Assembly: GCA_023548195.1 (NCBI GenBank)
Contig: JAJHZJ010000014.1
Location: 14,360,718-14,424,717, forward strand
DNA: 64,000 nt
Direction of reading: 5' to 3'
Source: Bettongia penicillata ogilbyi
Lineage: Eukaryota; Chordata; Mammalia; Diprotodontia; Potoroidae
Part shown: positions 13,980 through 57,840 of the stretch, in pieces
Numbering within the stretch: position 1 is the stretch's first letter
How the letters are laid out: each line of letters starts with the position of its first letter
Program-made: the position numbers and the translations under genes
The notes under the pieces: generated by a model
Told to the model about the DNA's origin: nothing
Database searches by the model: none
Seen by the model: only the letters and a program-made list of their open reading frames with translations

Positions 13980-14073
13980 TTTTTTCTTAATTTTTCTTTT
14001 AATTTATTTATTTATTTAACTTTTTGCATTCATTTTCACAAAATTTTGGGTTCCAAATTTTCTCCCCTTTTAT

Positions 14074-14097
14074 CCCCTCCCCCCACCCCAATACCCC
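14074..14097 (-). other. G-quadruplex motif in HAL1 A 3'UTR
   Basis: On the sense (minus) strand four G-runs of four to six bases separated by one to five bases. The same arrangement is kept in copy B (54155-54178) and, altered, at 22470-22500, 4419-4436 and 45040-45070. G-rich purine tracts are a known feature of mammalian L1 3'UTRs. Confidence 0.7.
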
Positions 14098-14832
14098 AAG
14101 CAATCGAATTTTCCCTATCTCCAATCTGACCTCTCTTCTGTCATCCCTCCCTTCTCTTGTCTCCATCTTCTCTTTTCTCCTGTAGGGCCAGATGACTTTC
14201 TATTCCTCATTAACTGTATGTCTTCTTTCCTAGTAGCAACAACAATACTAAACAGTTGTTCCTAAAACTTTCAGTTCCAAATTCTCCCCATCCCTCCCTC
14301 CCCACCCATTTCCTTTGGGAAGGCAGGCAATTCAATATAGGCCATATCTGTGTAGTTTTGCAAATAACTTCCCTGATAGTCGGGTTGTGTAAGACTAACT
14401 GAATTACCCTCCATCCTAACCTGTCCCTCATTGTTTCTCTTCTGTCTTTTGATCCTGTCCCTCCCCAGGTGTTGACTTCAAATTGCTCCCTCCTCCCTTT
14501 GCCCTCCCTTCCATCATCCCCCCCTTGCTTATCTCCTTCTCCCCCACTTTCCTATACTGTAAGATAGGTTTTCATACCAAAATGAGTGTGCATTTTATTC
14601 CTTCCTTTAGTCACATGTGATGAGGGTAAACTTCTTGTTTTTTGGGTTTTTTTTCTCAGCTCTCCTCTTTTTCCCTCCACTAAAAAGTCTCCTACTTGCC
14701 TCTTAAATAACATATAATTACCCCATTCCATTTCACCCTCTTTCTTCCCACTACATTTCTCTCTCACCATTTACCTTAATTTCTTTTAAGATATGCTCCC
14801 ATCCTATTCAATTCAATCTGTGCTCTCTGTCT

Positions 14833-14893
14833 CTGTGTGTGTGCATGTGTGTATGTGTGTGTGCATGCATGCGTGTACATGTGTGTGTGTGGT
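14833..14893. repeat. TG/CATG simple repeat in HAL1 A 3'UTR
   Basis: Mixed TGTG and TGCATG units, about 140 bp past the ORF1 stop on the sense strand and next to the conserved AGACAGAGAGCACAG block. Confidence 0.9.
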
Positions 14894-15025
14894 CCCACCA
14901 ACTACCCAGATACTGAAAAGTTTTAAGAGTTACAAATATTGTCTTTCCATGTAGGAATGTAAAGAGTTCACTTCTGGTAAGTCCCTTATGACTTCCCTTT
15001 GCTGTTTACTTTTTCATGCTTCTTC

Positions 15026-16078
15026 TCATTCTTGTGTTTGAAAGTCAAATTTTCTTTTCAGCTCTGGTCTTTTCATCAAGAATGTTTGAAAGTCCTCTGT
15101 TTCATTGAAAGACCATATTTTCCCCTGAAGTATTATACTCAGTTTAGCTGGGTAGGTGATTCTTGGTTTGAGTCCTAGTTCCTTTGACTTCTGGAATATC
15201 CTATTCCACGCCCTTCGATACCTTAATGTAGAAGCTGCTAGATCTTGAGTTATCCTGATTGTATTTCCACAATACTGGAATTGTTTCTTTCTAGCTGCTT
15301 GTAAGATTTTCTCCTTGAGCTGGGAGTTCTGGAATTTGGCCACAATGTTATTAGGAGTTTCTCTTTTTGGATCTCTTTCAAGTGGTGATGGATGGATTCT
15401 TTCAATACTTATTTTGCCCTCTGGTTGTAGAATGTCAGGGCAGTTTTCCTTGATAACTTCATGGAAGATGATGTCTAGGCTCTTTTTTTGATCATGACTT
15501 TCAGGTAGTCCCATAATTTTTAAATTGTCTCTCCTGGATCTATTTTCCAGGTCAGTTGTTTTTCCCATGAGATATTTCACAATCTCTTCCATTTTTTCAT
15601 TCTTTTGGTTTTGTTTGGTGATTTCTTGGTTTCTTGTAAAGTCATTAGACTCCATCTGTTCCATTCTAATTTTGAGAGAACTATTTTCTTCCGTGAGCTT
15701 TTGAACCTCTTTTTCCATTTGGCTAATTTTGCTTTTGAAAGCATTCTTCTCCTCATTGGCTTTTTGAACTTCTTTTGCCAATTGAGTGAGCCTATTTTTC
15801 AAGGTGTTATTTTCTTCAGCATTTTTTTGGGTCTCCTTTACCAAGGTATTGACCCGTTTTTCATACTTTTCTTGCATCTCTCTCATTTCTCTTCCCAGTT
15901 TTTCCTCCACCTGTCTAACTTGCTTTTCAAAATCCTTTTTGAGCTCTTCCAAGGGCTGAGCCCACCCAACATCCCCCTGGGATGTCTGGGGTACTGAGGC
16001 CCCGCCCTCCACATCTTTCCCTGATGGCAAGAATATGTCCTCGTCATCATCAGATCCGAAAGTTGGGATCATATGCAT
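15026..16078 (-). CDS. HAL1/L1 ORF1 protein, copy A (open from Met18)
   Basis: A 350-codon open frame encoding an L1-type ORF1p, the RNA-binding chaperone of the retrotransposon RNP. Order: acidic N-terminal part, long coiled coil (about residues 45-150 of the open frame, with NTLKNRLTQLAKEVQ heptads), RRM-like region (NLKIMGLPES) and C-terminal domain (NNIVAKF, QAARKKQF, ITYPAKL, ending FDFQTQE). The original start is at 16127-16129 (MPR), but codon 4 is TAA where copy B has AAA. Translation could only begin at the in-frame Met18 used here, losing the basic N terminus. About 30 substitutions and a 2-codon indel separate it from copy B. Otherwise intact. Confidence 0.85.
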   Translation of the reverse strand: MHMIPTFGSDDDEDIFLPSGKDVEGGASVPQTSQGDVGWAQPLEELKKDFEKQVRQVEEKLGREMREMQEKYEKRVNTLVKETQKNAEENNTLKNRLTQLAKEVQKANEEKNAFKSKISQMEKEVQKLTEENSSLKIRMEQMESNDFTRNQEITKQNQKNEKMEEIVKYLMGKTTDLENRSRRDNLKIMGLPESHDQKKSLDIIFHEVIKENCPDILQPEGKISIERIHPSPLERDPKRETPNNIVAKFQNSQLKEKILQAARKKQFQYCGNTIRITQDLAASTLRYRRAWNRIFQKSKELGLKPRITYPAKLSIILQGKIWSFNETEDFQTFLMKRPELKRKFDFQTQE

Positions 16079-16117
16079 CTGTTCGAAAAAACTCTCTATA
16101 GTCTTATTTTTCTTCCC

Positions 16118-16129
16118 TTATCTAGGCAT
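16118..16129 (-). other. Ancestral ORF1 start with nonsense codon 4
   Basis: On the minus strand ATG CCT AGA is followed by TAA at 16118-16120. Copy B reads AAA (Lys) there. A single A-to-T change separates the two. Confidence 0.85.
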
Positions 16130-16277
16130 TTTCCCAGCCAGTTACTTGACTTCTGAGATTCCTGTCCACCCCCGCCTAGATCCGCCCAGCTAGTGCTTGG
16201 GGTCTGAGATTCAATTGGGCTTTCCACGCGCACAGCTGCTAATCAATGTGAGCTTTAGTTCTGGTGCTGGGGTGGGA

Positions 16278-16412
16278 GCAGGGCCATCTCCCAGGCTCAG
16301 CTCCCTCAGGGGCTTTATGCAGAGACCTTCAGAAATGGAGCGAGTGGGGCAGGGCCATCTCCCAGGCTCAGCTCCCTCAGGGGGTTTATGCAGAAACTTT
16401 CAGTAATGAAGA
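16278..16412. repeat. Tandem 71-bp units in HAL1 A 5'UTR
   Basis: Two copies starting GCAGGGCCATCTCCCAGG at 16278 and 16349. The second is about 64 bp with several substitutions. Copy B has the same pair with a 72-bp period. Confidence 0.85.
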
Positions 16413-16767
16413 TCCAGCCTGCTGCTGGGGGAGTCCCGGGCTGCCGCATCTGGTGCCGCCCCCACTTCTGCCTCCACCCCTGCCTCTGCCGCCACTGCTT
16501 CCTCCCGAGGGGTCCCGAGTCACGGAGACAGCCCGCTCCCCTCTTGGTGAGCCCAAACGTGTCTCTCACTGACCTGTAGCTTCTGTGGGCGGAGGGACCT
16601 TCCCGGCCGCTGGAGCTTCTGTCCCTGAAGCCTGCTCGGATCAGCTTCTCTGGGGCCACGGCCAGGGCAGCACTGGGGTGGGGTCCGCTTTCCAGGGCGC
16701 GACGGACCCTGGGGATGGCTCTCCAGGGCTCTCTGGAACGGAAATCTCTTCCACTCTGTTTCTGCAC
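16315..16767 (-). CDS. Sense-strand open frame in HAL1 A 5'UTR (doubtful)
   Basis: A 150-codon frame upstream of ORF1 on the element's own strand, arginine/serine/proline-rich with no recognised domain. Its first 70 codons match, in frame, a frame of copy B (56455-56820): shared GRDFRS, AALAVAPEKLIRAGFRD and SAHRSYRSVR. B lacks 8 codons without losing frame, and the frames diverge after that. Openness of a GC-rich region by chance is quite possible. Confidence 0.2.
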   Translation of the reverse strand: MQKQSGRDFRSREPWRAIPRVRRALESGPHPSAALAVAPEKLIRAGFRDRSSSGREGPSAHRSYRSVRDTFGLTKRGAGCLRDSGPLGRKQWRQRQGWRQKWGRHQMRQPGTPPAAGWIFITESFCINPLRELSLGDGPAPLAPFLKVSA

Positions 16768-16882
16768 ACCCTGCAGTGGTCCAGAACTTATGGGGATCTC
16801 TTTTTACATTAATTCTATGGGCTGTGGGTTCGGAGCTTGTAAACGTGTGTCTTTCTACTCCGCCATCTTGACTCCGCCCCCC

Positions 16883-29409: not shown

Positions 29410-30639
29410 ACTGCCAGACACTTCCAGAAAGATGAAAATTAAAACTCTTGGAAATAATATAGCCAGAAGAACCTAGGTTGAAGAAAAATAATAGAAGCAC
29501 CAGGAAAAGAATTGAAATATTGAGGACCTACATCCAGGATCACACAAGATTTGGGAGTCATTATATATGGAAGGAATATCTTTGAATATAATATTCCAGA
29601 AGGCAAGGAATACAGGCTTATAATCTATGACCTACTCAGCAAAGTGAATATAATTCTATTGGGGAAAAATGGACCTGTAACAAAAATGAGGAATTCCAAG
29701 CATTTCTAATGAAAAGACCAGAGCTGAATGGGAAATTTGATATAAAATGTAGAAGTAAAGAGAAGCATATAAAAGTAAACATGAGAGAGCAATCATAAAG
29801 AATTAAACAAAGTTAAACCATATATATTCCCATATGTGGAGATGATACATGTAGCTCCTCAAAACTCTATCATCTTGAGATTTCAAAGAAGGGAATCTAA
29901 TTAGAATGAGGGTCTGAGAATGACTCTCTTATGTTAGGATGCTATCAAAAAAAGATTGGAATGGATGGTGAAGAGGAACACGCTGACAGAAGCAGAAAGA
30001 ATGGGGGAATTCATTTCACGTAATTGAAGAGTACAAAAAGAAGTTTAAACAACCAAGAGGGGGAGCAAGTTACACACTCACTCTTTCCTGCACTGAGTAG
30101 AGATGGGAAGAACACACATGCACACATAGTTGGGTACAGAAATACAACTCATCAACAAGGAAATACAAGGGAATGAGGCTAAGGGAAAAAGGGAAAAGAA
30201 TAGGAGGGAGGCTACACTAAGGGAGGCATTAATCAGGAGCAAAATAGACTCTTACAGACGTTGCAGAAAAAAAGAGAAGGAAAAGTATAAGAGAATACAA
30301 TTGAAGGAAATACAGTTAGCAATCATAACTACAAATCAGAATGGGATGAATTCACTCATGCAACAGAAGAAGATAGCAGAATGGATAAGAAACAATACAA
30401 TAATACATTGTTTGCAAGAAACACACTTGAAATAGAAAGATGAACACAGAGTAAAAATTAGGACAGGAGCAAGATCTCTGATGCTACAATTGAAGTGAAA
30501 AAAAAGGAAGAGGTAGCAACTATGATCTCAGACAAAGAGATAGTGAAATAGGCTAAGTTAATAGAGATAAACATGGAAACTACCTTTTAAAAAAAGATAT
30601 CATAAATAATGAATTAATGTCAATGACATAAAACCATAG

Positions 30640-52430: not shown

Positions 52431-53264
52431 CAGTGAGCATTTATTAAGCACTTAGTATTTTTAATTAATTAATTTTTAGTTTTCAACATTCCTTTCCGCA
52501 AGATTTTGACTTCCAAATTTTATCCCCATTTCTCCTGTCCTCTCACACCTATGACAATGTACATTCCAATTACCTCTTCATCCAATCTGCCCTCCCTTCA
52601 ATCACCCCTCTTCTCTTATTCTTTTTCTGTTCTATTTTCCTGTAGAAGAAGATAGATTTGTATACCCCATTGCCTGTATATCTTATTTCCCAGTTGCATA
52701 TAAAAACAATTTTTAACATTCATTTTTAAAACTTTGAGTCCCACATTCTCTCCTTCTCTCCCTCCCTCCCTACCCACCCTTATTGAGAAGGTAAGCAATT
52801 CTATATAGCTTATACATGTGTAGTCATGCAAAACATTTCCACAATAGTCATGTTGTGAAAGACTAATTATATTTCCCTTTATCCTATCCCACCCCTGTTA
52901 ATTCTATTCTCACCTTTGATCCAGTCCCTCCTCAAAAGTGTTTGTTTCTGATTACTTTCTCCACCAATCTGCCCTCCCTTCTATCAACCCTCCTCTCTTA
53001 TCCCCTTCCCACTCACATTCCTGTAAGGTGAGATAGACTTTCATATCCAATTGAGTGTGTATGTTATTCCTTCTTTAAGCCAAATCCAATGAGAATTCCC
53101 TCCCTGCTCTTCCCCTCCACTGTAATAGCTCTTTCTTGCCTCTTTTATGTGAGATAATCTGCTCCATTCTATTTTTCCCTTTCTCCTCCCACTACATTCC
53201 TCTCACTTTAATTTTATTTTTTATATATCATCCCTTCATATTCAGCTCACCCTGTGCCCTCTGT

Positions 53265-53302
53265 CTATATATATGTATGCATGTATGTATGTATAGGTAT
53301 AT
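53265..53302. repeat. TATG/CATG simple repeat in HAL1 3'UTR
   Basis: TATATATATGTATGCATG units at the HAL1 microsatellite site. Confidence 0.9.
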
Positions 53303-54055
53303 ATGAGAAAAGTCTCAAAAGTTTCAAATATTATCTTTCCATGTAGAAATGTAAACAGTTCAACTTTAGTAAGCCCCTTATGATTTCCCTTTCCTGTTTA
53401 CCTTTTCTTGCTTCTCTTGAGTCTTGTATTTGAAAGTCAGATTTCCTGTTCAGCTCTGGTCTTTTCATCAAGAATGATTGAAAGTCCTCTATTTAATTAA
53501 ATGACCATTTACCCTCTGAAGGTTTGTATTCAGTTTTAATGGGTAGGTGATTCTTGATTTTAAGCCTCACTATTTTTTTTGGCCTCCAGAATATCATATT
53601 CCAAACCAATGTAGAAGTTCCTAAATCTTGTGTTATCCTGATTGTATTTCTATGACACTTGAATATTTCTTTTGGGGTACTTGTAATAATTTCTCCTTGA
53701 CCTGGGAACTCTGGAATTTGACTACAATATTTCTAGGAGTTTCCTTTTGGGAATGGCTTTTATGAGGTGATTGGTGGCTTTTTTCAATTTCTATTCTGCC
53801 CTCTGGCTCTATAACATAAGGACAGGTTTCCTTGATAATTTCTTAAAAGATGGTGTCCAGATTCTTTTCTAGATCATGGCTCTCAGATAGTCCAAAAATT
53901 TTTAAATCATCTGTCCTGGATATATTTCCAGGTCAGTTGTTTTTCCAATGAGATATTTCACATTGTCTTCTACTTTTTCATGCTTTTGGTTTTGTTTTAT
54001 AATTTCTTTATTTGAATAGAGTCATTAGCTTCCATTTGCTCCATTCTTATTTTGA

Positions 54056-54070
54056 AGGAATTGTTTTCTT
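54056..54070. repeat. Target-site duplication of HAL1 copy B, left
   Basis: AGGAATTGTTTTCTT, identical over 15 bp to 56938-56952. Confidence 0.92.
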
Positions 54071-54154
54071 TTTTTTCTAATTTATTTATTTATTTATTTA
54101 ACTTTTTACATTCATTTTCACAAAATATGGGGTTCCAAATTTTCCCCCTTTTAT

Positions 54155-54178
54155 CCCCTCCCCCCACCCCAATACCCC
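54155..54178 (-). other. G-quadruplex motif in HAL1 B 3'UTR
   Basis: Same four G-runs as copy A on the sense strand. Confidence 0.7.
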
Positions 54179-54907
54179 AAGCAATCTAATTTTCCCTATC
54201 TCCAATCAGCCCTCTCTTCTGTCATCCCTCCCTTCTCTTGTCTCCATCTTCTCTTTTCTCATGTAGGGCCAGATGACTTTCTATTCCTCATTAACTGTAT
54301 GTCTTCTTTTCTAGTAGCAACACAAAACTAAACAGTTGCTCCTAAAACTTTTAGTTCCAAATTCTCCCCATCCCTCCCTCCCCACCCATTCCCTTTGGGA
54401 AGGCAGGCAATTCAATATAGGCCATATCTGTGTAGTTTTGCAAATGACTTCCCTGATAGTCGTGTTGTGTAAGACTAACTGAATTACCCTCCATCCTATC
54501 CTGCCCCTCGTTGTTTCTATTCTGTCTTTTGATCCTGTCCCTCCCCAAGTGTTGACTTCTAATTGCTCCCTCCTCCCTTTGCCCTCCCTTCCATCATCCC
54601 CCCCTTTGCTTATCTCCTTCTCCCCCACTTTCCTATACTGTAAGGTAGGTTTTCATACCAAAATGAGTGTGCATTTTATTCCTTCCTTTAGTCAAATGTG
54701 ATGAGGGTAAACTTCTTGGTTGTTTTTTTTCTCAGCTCTCCTCTTTTTCTCTCCACTAAAAAGTCTCCTACTTGCCTCTTAAATGACATATAATTACCCC
54801 ATTCCATTTCAACCTCTTTCCTCCCACTACATTTCTCTCTCAGCATTTACCTTAATTTCTTTTAAGATATGGTCCCATCCTATTCAATTCAATCTGTGCT
54901 CTCTGTC

Positions 54908-54970
54908 TCTGTATGTGTGTGCATGTGTGTATGTGTGTGTGCGTTCATGCATATACATGTGTGTGTGTGA
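54908..54970. repeat. TG/CATG simple repeat in HAL1 B 3'UTR
   Basis: Mixed TGTG, CATG and TATG units at the HAL1 microsatellite site. Confidence 0.9.
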
Positions 54971-55103
54971 TCCCACCAACTACCCAGATACTGAAAAGTT
55001 TTAAGAGTTACAAATATTGTCTTTCCATGTCGGAATGTAAACAGTTCACTTCTGGTAAGTCCCTTAAGACTTCTCTTTCCTGTTTACTTTTTCATGCTTC
55101 TTC

Positions 55104-56201
55104 TCATTCCTGTGTTTGAAAGTCAAATTTTCTTTTCAGCTCTGGTCTTTTCATCAAGAATGATTGAAAGTCCTCTGTTTCCTTGAAAGACCATATTTTC
55201 CCCTGAAGTATTATACTCAGTTTTGCTGGGTAGGTGATTCTTGGTTTGAGTCCTAGTTCCTTTGACTTCTGGAATATCCTATTCCACACCCTTTGATTCC
55301 TTAATGTAGAAGCTGCTAGATCTTGTGTTATCCTGATTGTATTTCCACAATACTGGAATTGTTTCTTTCTAGCTGCTTGCAATATTTTCTCCTTGACCTG
55401 GAAATTCTGGAATTTGGCCACAATGTTCCTAGGAGTTTCTCTTTTTGGATCTCTTTCAGGCGGTGATCTGTGGATTCCTTCAATTCTTATTTTGCCCTCT
55501 GGTTCTAGAATCTCAGGGCAGTTTTCCTTGATAATTTCTTGGAAGATGATGTCTAGGCTCTTTTTTTGATCATGACTTTCAGGTAGTCCCATAATTTTTA
55601 AATTGTCTCTCCTGGATCTATTTTCCAGGTCAGTTGTTTTTCCAATGAGATATTTCACATTCTCTTCCATTTTTTCATTCTTTTGGTTTTGTTTGGTGAT
55701 TTCTTGGTTTCTCAGAAAGTCATTAGACTCCATTTGTTCCATTCGAATTTTGAGAGAACTATTCTCTTCAGTGAGCTTTTGAACCTCTTTTTCCATTTGG
55801 CTCATTCTGCTTTTGAAAGCATTCTTCTCCTCATTGGCTTTTTGAACCTCTTTTGCCAATTGAGTTAGCCTATTTTTCAAGGTGTTATTTTCCTCAGCAT
55901 TTTTTTGGGTCTCCTTTACCAAGGTATTGACCCATTTTTCATACTTTTCTTGCATCTCTCTCATTTCTCTTCCCAGTCTTTCCTCCACCTGTTTGACTTG
56001 CTTTTCAAAATCCTTTTTGAGTTCTTCCAAGGCCTCAGCCCATCTGACATCCCCCTGGGATGTCTGGGGTACTGCGGCCCCACCCTCCACGTCTTTCCCT
56101 GATGGCAAGAATATTTCCTCGTCAGATCCGGAAGTCGGGATCATTTGCATCTGTTCGAAAAAACTCTCTATAGTCTTATTTTTCTTCCCTTTTCTAGGCA
56201 T
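55104..56201 (-). CDS. HAL1/L1 ORF1 protein, copy B (intact, 365 aa)
   Basis: Complete ORF1p: basic N terminus (MPRKGKKNKTIESFFEQ), acidic segment, coiled coil about residues 60-165 with regular heptads (NTLKNRLTQLAKEVQKANEE), RRM-like region about 170-260 (NRSRRDNLKIMGLPES, FQEIIKENCPEILEPEG) and C-terminal domain about 260-355 (ERDPKRETPRNIVAKF, QAARKKQFQYCGN, ITYPAKL). In L1 biology ORF1p trimerises through the coiled coil, binds the element's RNA in cis and is needed for retrotransposition. Length fits mammalian ORF1p (about 340-370). Start chosen as the first Met after the 5'UTR; copy A confirms it. No stop or frameshift. Confidence 0.93.
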   Translation of the reverse strand: MPRKGKKNKTIESFFEQMQMIPTSGSDEEIFLPSGKDVEGGAAVPQTSQGDVRWAEALEELKKDFEKQVKQVEERLGREMREMQEKYEKWVNTLVKETQKNAEENNTLKNRLTQLAKEVQKANEEKNAFKSRMSQMEKEVQKLTEENSSLKIRMEQMESNDFLRNQEITKQNQKNEKMEENVKYLIGKTTDLENRSRRDNLKIMGLPESHDQKKSLDIIFQEIIKENCPEILEPEGKIRIEGIHRSPPERDPKRETPRNIVAKFQNFQVKEKILQAARKKQFQYCGNTIRITQDLAASTLRNQRVWNRIFQKSKELGLKPRITYPAKLSIILQGKIWSFKETEDFQSFLMKRPELKRKFDFQTQE

Positions 56202-56330
56202 TTTCCCAGCCAGCTACTTGACTTCTGAGATTCCTGTCCACCCCCGCCTAGATCCGCCCAGCCAGTGCTTGGGGTCTGAGGTTCAAATGGGCTTTCCGCA
56301 GCAAGCTTTAGTTCAGGTGCTGGGGTGTGG

Positions 56331-56465
56331 GCAGGGCTGCCTCCCAGGCTCAGCTCCCTCAGGGGCTTTATGCAGAGACCTTCAGTAATGGAGCGGAGTG
56401 GGGCAGGGCCAGTCTCCCAGGCTCAGCTCCCTCAGGTTGTTTATGCAGAGATTTTCAGTAATGAA
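56331..56465. repeat. Tandem 72-bp units in HAL1 B 5'UTR
   Basis: Units start GCAGGGCTGCCTCCCAGG at 56331 and GCAGGGCCAGTCTCCCAGG at 56403. Confidence 0.85.
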
Positions 56466-56820
56466 GATCCTGCCTGCTGCTGGGGGAGTCTGGGCCACAG
56501 CCACCGCTGCCTCTGCTGCCGCCCATGCCTCTGCCTCCGCCGCTTCCTGCCCCCATCTCTGCTGCTGACGCTTCCTCCCAAGGGAGCCCGAGCCACGGAG
56601 ACACTCCGCTCCTCCTCTTGTCCAGCTCAGCCTTCTCTCTCACTGACCTGTAGCTTCTGTGGGCGGAGGGACTTTCCCGGCTGCTGGAGCTTCCGTCCCT
56701 GAAGCCTGCTCGGATCAGCTTCTCTGGGGCCACAGCCAGGGCAGCGCTGGGGTGGGGTCCTCTGTGAACGGCTCTCCAGGGCTCACTGGAACGGAAATCT
56801 CTTCCCCTATGTTTATGCAC
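56455..56820 (-). CDS. Sense-strand open frame in HAL1 B 5'UTR (doubtful)
   Basis: 121 codons, no recognised domain. In-frame match to the copy A frame over the first 65 or so codons. Confidence 0.2.
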   Translation of the reverse strand: MHKHRGRDFRSSEPWRAVHRGPHPSAALAVAPEKLIRAGFRDGSSSSRESPSAHRSYRSVREKAELDKRRSGVSPWLGLPWEEASAAEMGAGSGGGRGMGGSRGSGGCGPDSPSSRQDLHY

Positions 56821-56937
56821 CCCCTGCAGTGATTCAGAATTTATGGGGATCTCTTTTTACCTTAATTCTATGGGTTGTGGGTTCAGAGCTCGTAAACGTG
56901 CATCTTTCTACTCCGTCATCTTGGCTCCGCCACCCTC

Positions 56938-56952
56938 AGGAATTGTTTTCTT
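56938..56952. repeat. Target-site duplication of HAL1 copy B, right
   Basis: AGGAATTGTTTTCTT, partner of 54056-54070. Confidence 0.92.
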
Positions 56953-57840
56953 CATTGAACTTCTGGACCTCCTTTTCCATTGGCCAATTCGACTTTTAAG
57001 GTATTCTTCTCTTCATTGGTTTTTTGGCCTCTTTTGCTGTTTGGATTAGTCAATTTTTTAAAGTGGTATTTTCTGCAGTATTTTCTTGTGTCCCCTTTAA
57101 CTAGCTGTTGACTCAATTTTCATGACTTTATTGCATCATTCTTATTTCTCTTCACAATTTTTCCTCTACTTTTCTTACTTGATTTTCAAAATCATTTTTG
57201 AGTTCTTCCTTGGCCTGAGACCAATTCATATTTCTCTTGAAGGCTTTGAATGTTAGAGATTTGACTTGCTTGTCTTCTTTAATCTGAGTTTTTTCCCTCT
57301 GTTTGTTCATTTTCCCAGCCAATTACTTGGCTTTGTAACTCTTTGTTAAAGTAGAACTCTGCTTCCAGTGTAAAGTGTCTACTATCCCAGTCTTCATGGG
57401 TTTTGTGCAACTCTTTTCAGAGATACTTCTAGGGACCTGTAAATTTTCAGTTCTTCTGAGGTGGTATGATCAAAGGAGAAGTGTTACTCTTCATTTGGCC
57501 TGTCTACTGATCTGTGAGTGACCACAAGCACTCTTTTCTGCCTTAGAACTGTGAGGAGCATTCCCTTTCCACTCCCTTCATAAGCTCTACCATACTATAA
57601 CTCCTCCTAGCCCTAGTACCACCACCCTGGGCCATGACCCATATCCAAACCTGGGAAAACCAAGAGAATTCTGCCTTAGCAGCAGCAAAGGGATTCCTGC
57701 AATCCCCCTCTGATCAACCACTTTATCCTCTGTGGCTGAAATCTCCAGAAGCAGCCATTGTCACTATTGTCACTGCTGCCACTGCCCTGGGGCTGAGGCT
57801 AAATCACACTCCTCTCTCACCCAGTTCCAACACTGTATTC

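Follow-up and report, generated by a model that had tools for sequence, protein, structure and literature searches.

Results

A complete L1-type insertion without ORF2

The window, the whole 64,000-nt stretch of Bettongia penicillata ogilbyi DNA that was analysed, contains a complete L1-type insertion of 2867 nt on the minus strand at positions 54071-56937. Sense-strand coordinates along the element are given as el, where el 1 is window position 56937 and el 2867 is position 54071. In minus-strand order the element is composed of a 5'UTR of 736 nt, an ORF1 of 365 codons, a post-ORF1 region of about 1.0 kb and an A-rich tail. It is bounded by the target-site duplication (TSD) AGGAATTGTTTTCTT (plus strand) at 54056-54070 and 56938-56952, identical at 15/15 positions, and both ends are fixed by this TSD. 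The features of the locus, together with the closest relative in the window, are as follows.

54071-56937, minus strand: whole HAL1-type (half-L1) element, 2867 nt, ends by TSD; matched by 40/40 scored genomic places
54056-54070, no strand: TSD copy adjoining the 3' tail
56938-56952, no strand: TSD copy adjoining the 5' end
56202-56937, minus strand: 5'UTR, 736 nt, G+C-rich (0.62 over el 131-736)
56883-56935, minus strand: 5' terminus (el 3-55) in common with L064, an intact L1 of the same genome (aligns with L064 171-223)
56321-56466, minus strand: tandem pair of 73-nt 5'UTR units, their number being 2, 3 or 4 elsewhere in the family
55104-56201, minus strand: ORF1, 365 aa, with a coiled-coil region holding 63-nt repeats, an RRM (PF02994) and a C-terminal domain (PF17490), by domain matches
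54071-54103, minus strand: A-rich tail with TAAA repeats, read from the sequence
52460-54070, minus strand: older same-family copy struck by the insertion, 3' part
56953-57223, minus strand: older same-family copy struck by the insertion, 5' part; alignment is continuous across the insertion site
13991-16882, minus strand: copy A, a full-length relative, 91.4% identical; longest frame 350 aa, one stop inside ORF1

The TSD, the A-rich tail and the absence of an ORF2 match bear out the initial annotation, which had described the element as full length at both ends yet lacking ORF2. When the flanks are joined over one TSD, they align unbroken to el 896-1945 at 79%; the host of the insertion is an older copy in the same orientation.

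The genome (3.39 Gb) was searched with the element as query and 40 of 21595 candidates were scored; all 40, the 54071-56937 copy included, match the element. The 44 copies compared below are this element, copy A and 42 others; the fetched places came from the whole-element search (the other 39) and from a 3'-end search (four), and one of them, L048, was excluded. The 44 copies are 2830-3024 nt long. One further arrangement was seen at L027 551-4909, where a full copy runs straight into another of like orientation, which is partial but 5'-complete (el 7-1459); no clear TSD is seen.

The 5' terminus is of L1 type: the alignment of el 3-55 with that of L064 (score 41) was reached by 0/300 and 0/200 shuffles. 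Homology of the remaining 5'UTR, past the first 60 nt, to the L1 5'UTR was rejected, the score being reached by 138/200 shuffles. The 73-nt unit is present twice in 27 copies, three times in 16 and four times in one, and both the 2-unit and the 3-unit states occur in both main clades of the family. Promoter monomers of other L1s resemble this unit in their varying number. The 5'UTR of the element is likely to act as an internal promoter.

Insertion sites

Of 43 family loci, 33 have an exact TSD of 10 nt or more, against 1/215 when flanks were mismatched between loci. Chance duplication was rejected by this control, and the perfect 15-bp TSD noted initially is accordingly not a chance match. 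Position +1 of the TSD is A in 28/33 loci and position +2 is A in 28/33; the consensus of the L1 endonuclease nick expects A at both. On these sequence grounds, insertion is seen to have occurred at an L1-type nick site with a TSD. The parasitism of L1 that had been proposed for the element fits both the TSDs and the nick motif. A candidate helper is present: out of 40005 candidate RT loci 150 were scored, and by hand count about 60 of these lie in a stop-free 1298-codon frame.

Self-nesting was considered as a targeting signal: at 15/44 fetched loci, upwards of 80 nt of the flanks belong to the family (17% of flank bases). We do not claim such a signal, as nested places may rank higher in the search and copies of the family are common. 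Three nested pairs share a host site within family ORF1, at el about 1170-1182, 1398-1413 and 1766-1782: the window insertion (54070/56953) with L029, L031 with L051, and L039 with L047. The hosts of the first two pairs are only about 70% alike, so that these insertions are independent, and the hosts of the third are 93% alike, a likeness that copies of the family show in any case.

ORF1 of the element

ORF1 (55104-56201, minus strand) is an open frame of 365 aa from its ATG, and both L1 ORF1p domains exceed their cut-offs (PF02994, E 6.1e-14; PF17490, E 5.5e-11), in agreement with the intact ORF1 reported at first. Its best match among solved structures is human LINE-1 ORF1p (2yko, E 5.2e-32), to which residues 148-357 align; the human protein comes from an autonomous element. 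The copy had also been called the best preserved, which is true within the window and fails in the family, where an ORF1 frame of 360 aa or more is present in 19/44 copies, this one among them. With that many copies open, the open frame of the 54071-56937 copy is partly luck. At 17 positions its ORF1 has a residue other than the one most frequent in the family; among these is the following.

55293-55295, minus strand: ORF1 codon 303, CAA (Gln), aligned with the first Arg of the human pair that we take to be R261/R262

In the other 43 copies this codon is CGA (Arg) in 32, CAA in 7 and TGA (stop) in 4, which as a sequence pattern is that of CpG decay. JM111, a human double mutant in which both arginines are changed, is described as abolishing retrotransposition (PMC6295051). 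We considered whether Gln here marks a dead protein and dropped the idea: JM111 alters both Arg, and P0001 of the tammar and P0035 of Sarcophilus also have Gln at the position. Because these two proteins share it, the Gln is only a hint that loss of one Arg may weaken the 54071-56937 copy.

Age of the family

The closest pair among the 44 copies is 2.6% apart. The tree is star-like with terminal branches of 1.4-3.6%; the branch of the 54071-56937 copy is 2.9%, and 36 of the other 43 copies have shorter ones. Near-identical copies, which a currently active element should have, were sought with three queries: the best other match was 96% with the element (40 of 21595 candidates scored), 97% with its 3' end (40 of 4970) and 97% with a central copy (40 of 19072), and since 40 places were scored per search, a small young subfamily could be missed. 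The initial annotation had taken the copy to be recent and had suggested a search for near-identical copies; with nothing above 97% from the three queries and a terminal branch of 2.9%, that part did not hold.

These data bear on whether the element belongs to a HAL1 family that is active today with a functional ORF1p. Open frames in 19/44 copies and the presence in the genome of L1 with intact ORF2 frames would suit such a family, but the lack of any copy above 97% among the 40 places scored for each query, the star-like tree with its terminal branches and the 17 uncommon residues in ORF1 of the 54071-56937 copy speak against it, and we regard present activity as very unlikely. Judging from the copies compared, the family is apparently quiet now, and the 54071-56937 copy is a decaying fossil, about 3% from its source, lodged in a still older one from the family.

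Selection on ORF1

Mean pairwise dN/dS of ORF1 was 0.42 in the larger clade (630 pairs), 0.39 in the smaller (21 pairs) and 0.38 between clades (252 pairs), and it was 0.39-0.50 against five other window copies holding ORF1 sequence. Over 200 sampled pairs the value was 0.42; neutral simulations along the same tree gave 0.69-0.75, with 0.59 in the lowest single run. Copies without an in-frame stop numbered 22/44, and 32 neutral runs gave 0-14. A value near 1 had been named initially as the outcome that would speak against selection; the observed range of 0.38-0.50 is not near 1, and the proposal that ORF1 was kept under selection is upheld by a dN/dS of about 0.42, well below the neutral 0.69-0.75.

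On the tree, nonsynonymous and synonymous changes were 45:37 on internal branches and 463:248 on terminal branches (Fisher p 0.07; p 0.21 without CpG sites). This weaker evidence is in the right direction and not significant. Premature stops made up 0/82 ORF1 changes on internal branches and 31/742 on terminal branches. Together, dN/dS, the neutral simulations and the tree counts indicate that the replicating lineage kept ORF1 and that single copies decay after insertion. RNA packaging would be the selected function.

The same ORF1 constraint would be produced if ORF1 had been kept for an action on L1, as a restraint or a host-used product, the family then being a gene source that is partly domesticated. 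The constraint, however, spans dispersed mobile copies while single copies decay, as the 31 terminal-branch stops record, no single conserved locus came to light in this genome, and we think such a role very improbable.

Derivation from a full-length L1

L064, a full L1 of the same genome, has an ORF2 frame of 1298 codons, separated from its ORF1 by a spacer of about 560 nt. The post-ORF1 region of the element was compared with L064, with older L1 sequence in the window and with a second L1, L065, which had been fetched for the ORF1 of the parent and is 5'-truncated. The parts of the region are as follows.

54541-55103, minus strand: remnant of the L1 ORF1-ORF2 spacer, homologous to the L064 and window L1 spacers
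54474-54541, minus strand: interval holding the ORF2-loss junction, el about 2397-2464, aligned through by five other window copies
54343-54474, minus strand: L1 3'UTR block, el 2464-2595, matching window 30853-30726 (minus strand) and L065 6271-6410
54100-54171, minus strand: second copy of the L1 3'-terminal block, el 2767-2838, adjoining the tail; 72% to L065 6360-6429

For the spacer, el 2034-2397 aligns with L064 2423-2744 (score 130) and el 1839-2366 with the spacer of an old window L1 at 29763-30226 (score 96), each reached by 0/200 shuffles. Narrower comparisons were weaker. The match of el 1955-2400 to the window spacer was reached by 1/200 shuffles, that of the first 120 nt to the beginning of the L064 spacer by 6/200, and that to window 29801-30320 under stricter scoring by 13/200. 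The ORF1-ORF2 spacers themselves (L064 2289-2847 and window 29763-30285) are about 520-560 nt long with a purine-rich end; that of human L1 is far shorter.

For the 3'UTR, el 2464-2595 matches the window L1 at 30853-30726 (minus strand) with score 107 (0/200 shuffles), and this match begins about 220 nt past the point where ORF2 similarity ends, at residue 1277 of 1298. The block is also 72% identical to L065 6271-6410 (E 1.8e-14). A further window L1 3'UTR, at 25079-24300, gave score 42 (0/200), and another window stretch, 1690-2650, score 33 (1/200). The two L1 3'-terminal blocks of the element hold a 35-nt repeat, 71% alike. With the 3'UTR of L064 the 3' region has only a weak match (score 29), reached by 13/300 shuffles for the whole region and by 2/300 for its last 110 nt; a separate test of the 3' region gave 2/200. 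For the L1 family with the 3'UTR of the element, 40 of 13114 candidates were scored and no other copy among them exceeded 81% identity to that in the window; by this divergence the L1 family carrying the HAL1-type 3'UTR is itself old.

The post-ORF1 region is thus an L1 ORF1-ORF2 spacer joined to an L1 3'UTR, and the family is therefore L1 minus ORF2. On these alignments, the stretch missing relative to the ancestral L1 would measure about 4 kb, beginning at the spacer end and reaching into the 3'UTR.

The loss is inherited. With an ORF2 of the same genome as tblastn query, none of the 44 copies gave a match at E 1e-3, and this query does detect ORF2 pieces in L065 and elsewhere in the window. 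An ORF2 remnant after ORF1 was likewise rejected, the best tblastn match having only E 0.7. Six other window stretches were compared at the junction interval; five extend into it and align across it, and the sixth stops short. The junction identities of the five are 52/76, 66/79, 63/79, 73/77 and 52/80 positions, and their overall identities to the element are 75, 79, 77, 92 and 70%, respectively. Since window copies at 70-92% cross the same junction, ORF2 was lost once, long ago. The ORF1-only state had been annotated as inherited, subject to the closest copies not carrying ORF2; both the 44 copies and the five shared junctions agree with this, and a deletion private to the 54071-56937 copy is rejected. 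Internally deleted L1 copies exist in general, and ORF1 frames open in 19/44 copies might be put down to youth, but chance internal deletion of an ordinary L1 in a few copies is scarcely credible when 44/44 copies lack ORF2, five other window copies, old and young, have the junction in common, and L064 is 26% divergent where its ORF1 DNA can be aligned and unlike the element over almost the whole of the UTRs.

Discussion

We conclude that the element is very probably a marsupial non-autonomous retrotransposon of HAL1 type, an L1 minus ORF2, the spacer end and the 3'UTR start. It has an L1-type ORF1p without ORF2, spacer and 3'UTR homology flanking the lost ORF2, an A-rich tail with L1-type TSDs, and an ORF1-only state inherited in a multi-copy family; ORF2 with EN and RT, the mark of an autonomous L1, is absent.

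HAL1s are described as having ORF1 only, as derived from L1 and as thought to depend on L1 RT/EN (PMC5322556, PMC5753468), and as having arisen independently several times (PMC5753468, citing Bao and Jurka 2010). The element resembles the mammalian HAL1 of these descriptions in having ORF1 only, an L1 origin, an A-rich tail and TSDs, so the remark made at the outset that HAL1 is already known applies: its biology is of HAL1 type. Set against HAL1s, its UTRs, spacer-3'UTR junction, 73-nt 5'UTR units and doubled 3' block are described here. Among open-licence papers on half-L1 or marsupial L1, none describing this family was found, which says little about print. By comparison with the published descriptions of HAL1s, the family is a well-documented new one of the known HAL1 kind. 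The autonomous L064 resembles the element in its 5' terminus, ORF1 (59% aa) and spacer, and weakly at the 3' end, whereas it has ORF2 and its ORF1 groups with a different tammar ORF1.

The course may be pictured as follows. A full-length L1 lost ORF2 plus the spacer end and the 3'UTR start to become a half-L1. The family spread with ORF1 under selection, ORF2 being absent from every copy examined, young and old. Transcription may start from the element's own 5'UTR, and the RNA would be coated in cis by the ORF1p that it encodes; a co-resident autonomous L1 would supply ORF2p in trans, used via the A-rich tail. The absent ORF2, the nick motif and the L1 with many intact frames suggest that L1 ORF2p moved the family in trans.

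The element shows the anatomy of the change from L1 to half-L1, in which ORF2 was lost along with the spacer end and the 3'UTR start. It also offers evidence that selection has retained ORF1 in a retrotransposon that encodes no reverse transcriptase. The family is thus a natural test of why a parasite of L1 should need an ORF1p of its own, cis packaging being the candidate reason.

ORF1 lineage and nearest relatives

The nearest named ORF1 proteins are from Notamacropus eugenii (84%) and Vombatus ursinus (68%; 77% over a shorter stretch); a Monodelphis domestica protein is 70% identical over three quarters of the query. A midpoint-rooted protein tree was built from 74 ORF1s, namely 68 of 114 matched proteins (chosen by length), five HAL1 copies and L064. 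The HAL1 ORF1 groups with tammar P0001, P0002, P0003, P0005 and P0013 (100/100), wombat P0006 and P0012 joining next (98/96), and the L064 ORF1 groups with tammar P0011 (100/100). From these separate groupings we infer that the two lineages parted before the host-tammar split; the long life of the half-L1 state itself would rest on the older window copies. A bolder and tentative reading, somewhat short of an even chance in our judgement, is that of one ORF1-only lineage whose ORF1 split from that of the present L1 before the host-tammar divergence, and which retained that ORF1 under selection for tens of Myr, outlived the L1 family that gave its 3'UTR and switched L1 helper families. One further protein, P0014, is filed under a Bacteroidales MAG; it is a marsupial-type L1 ORF1, 52% identical to that of the element, and is probably host DNA in a gut metagenome bin.
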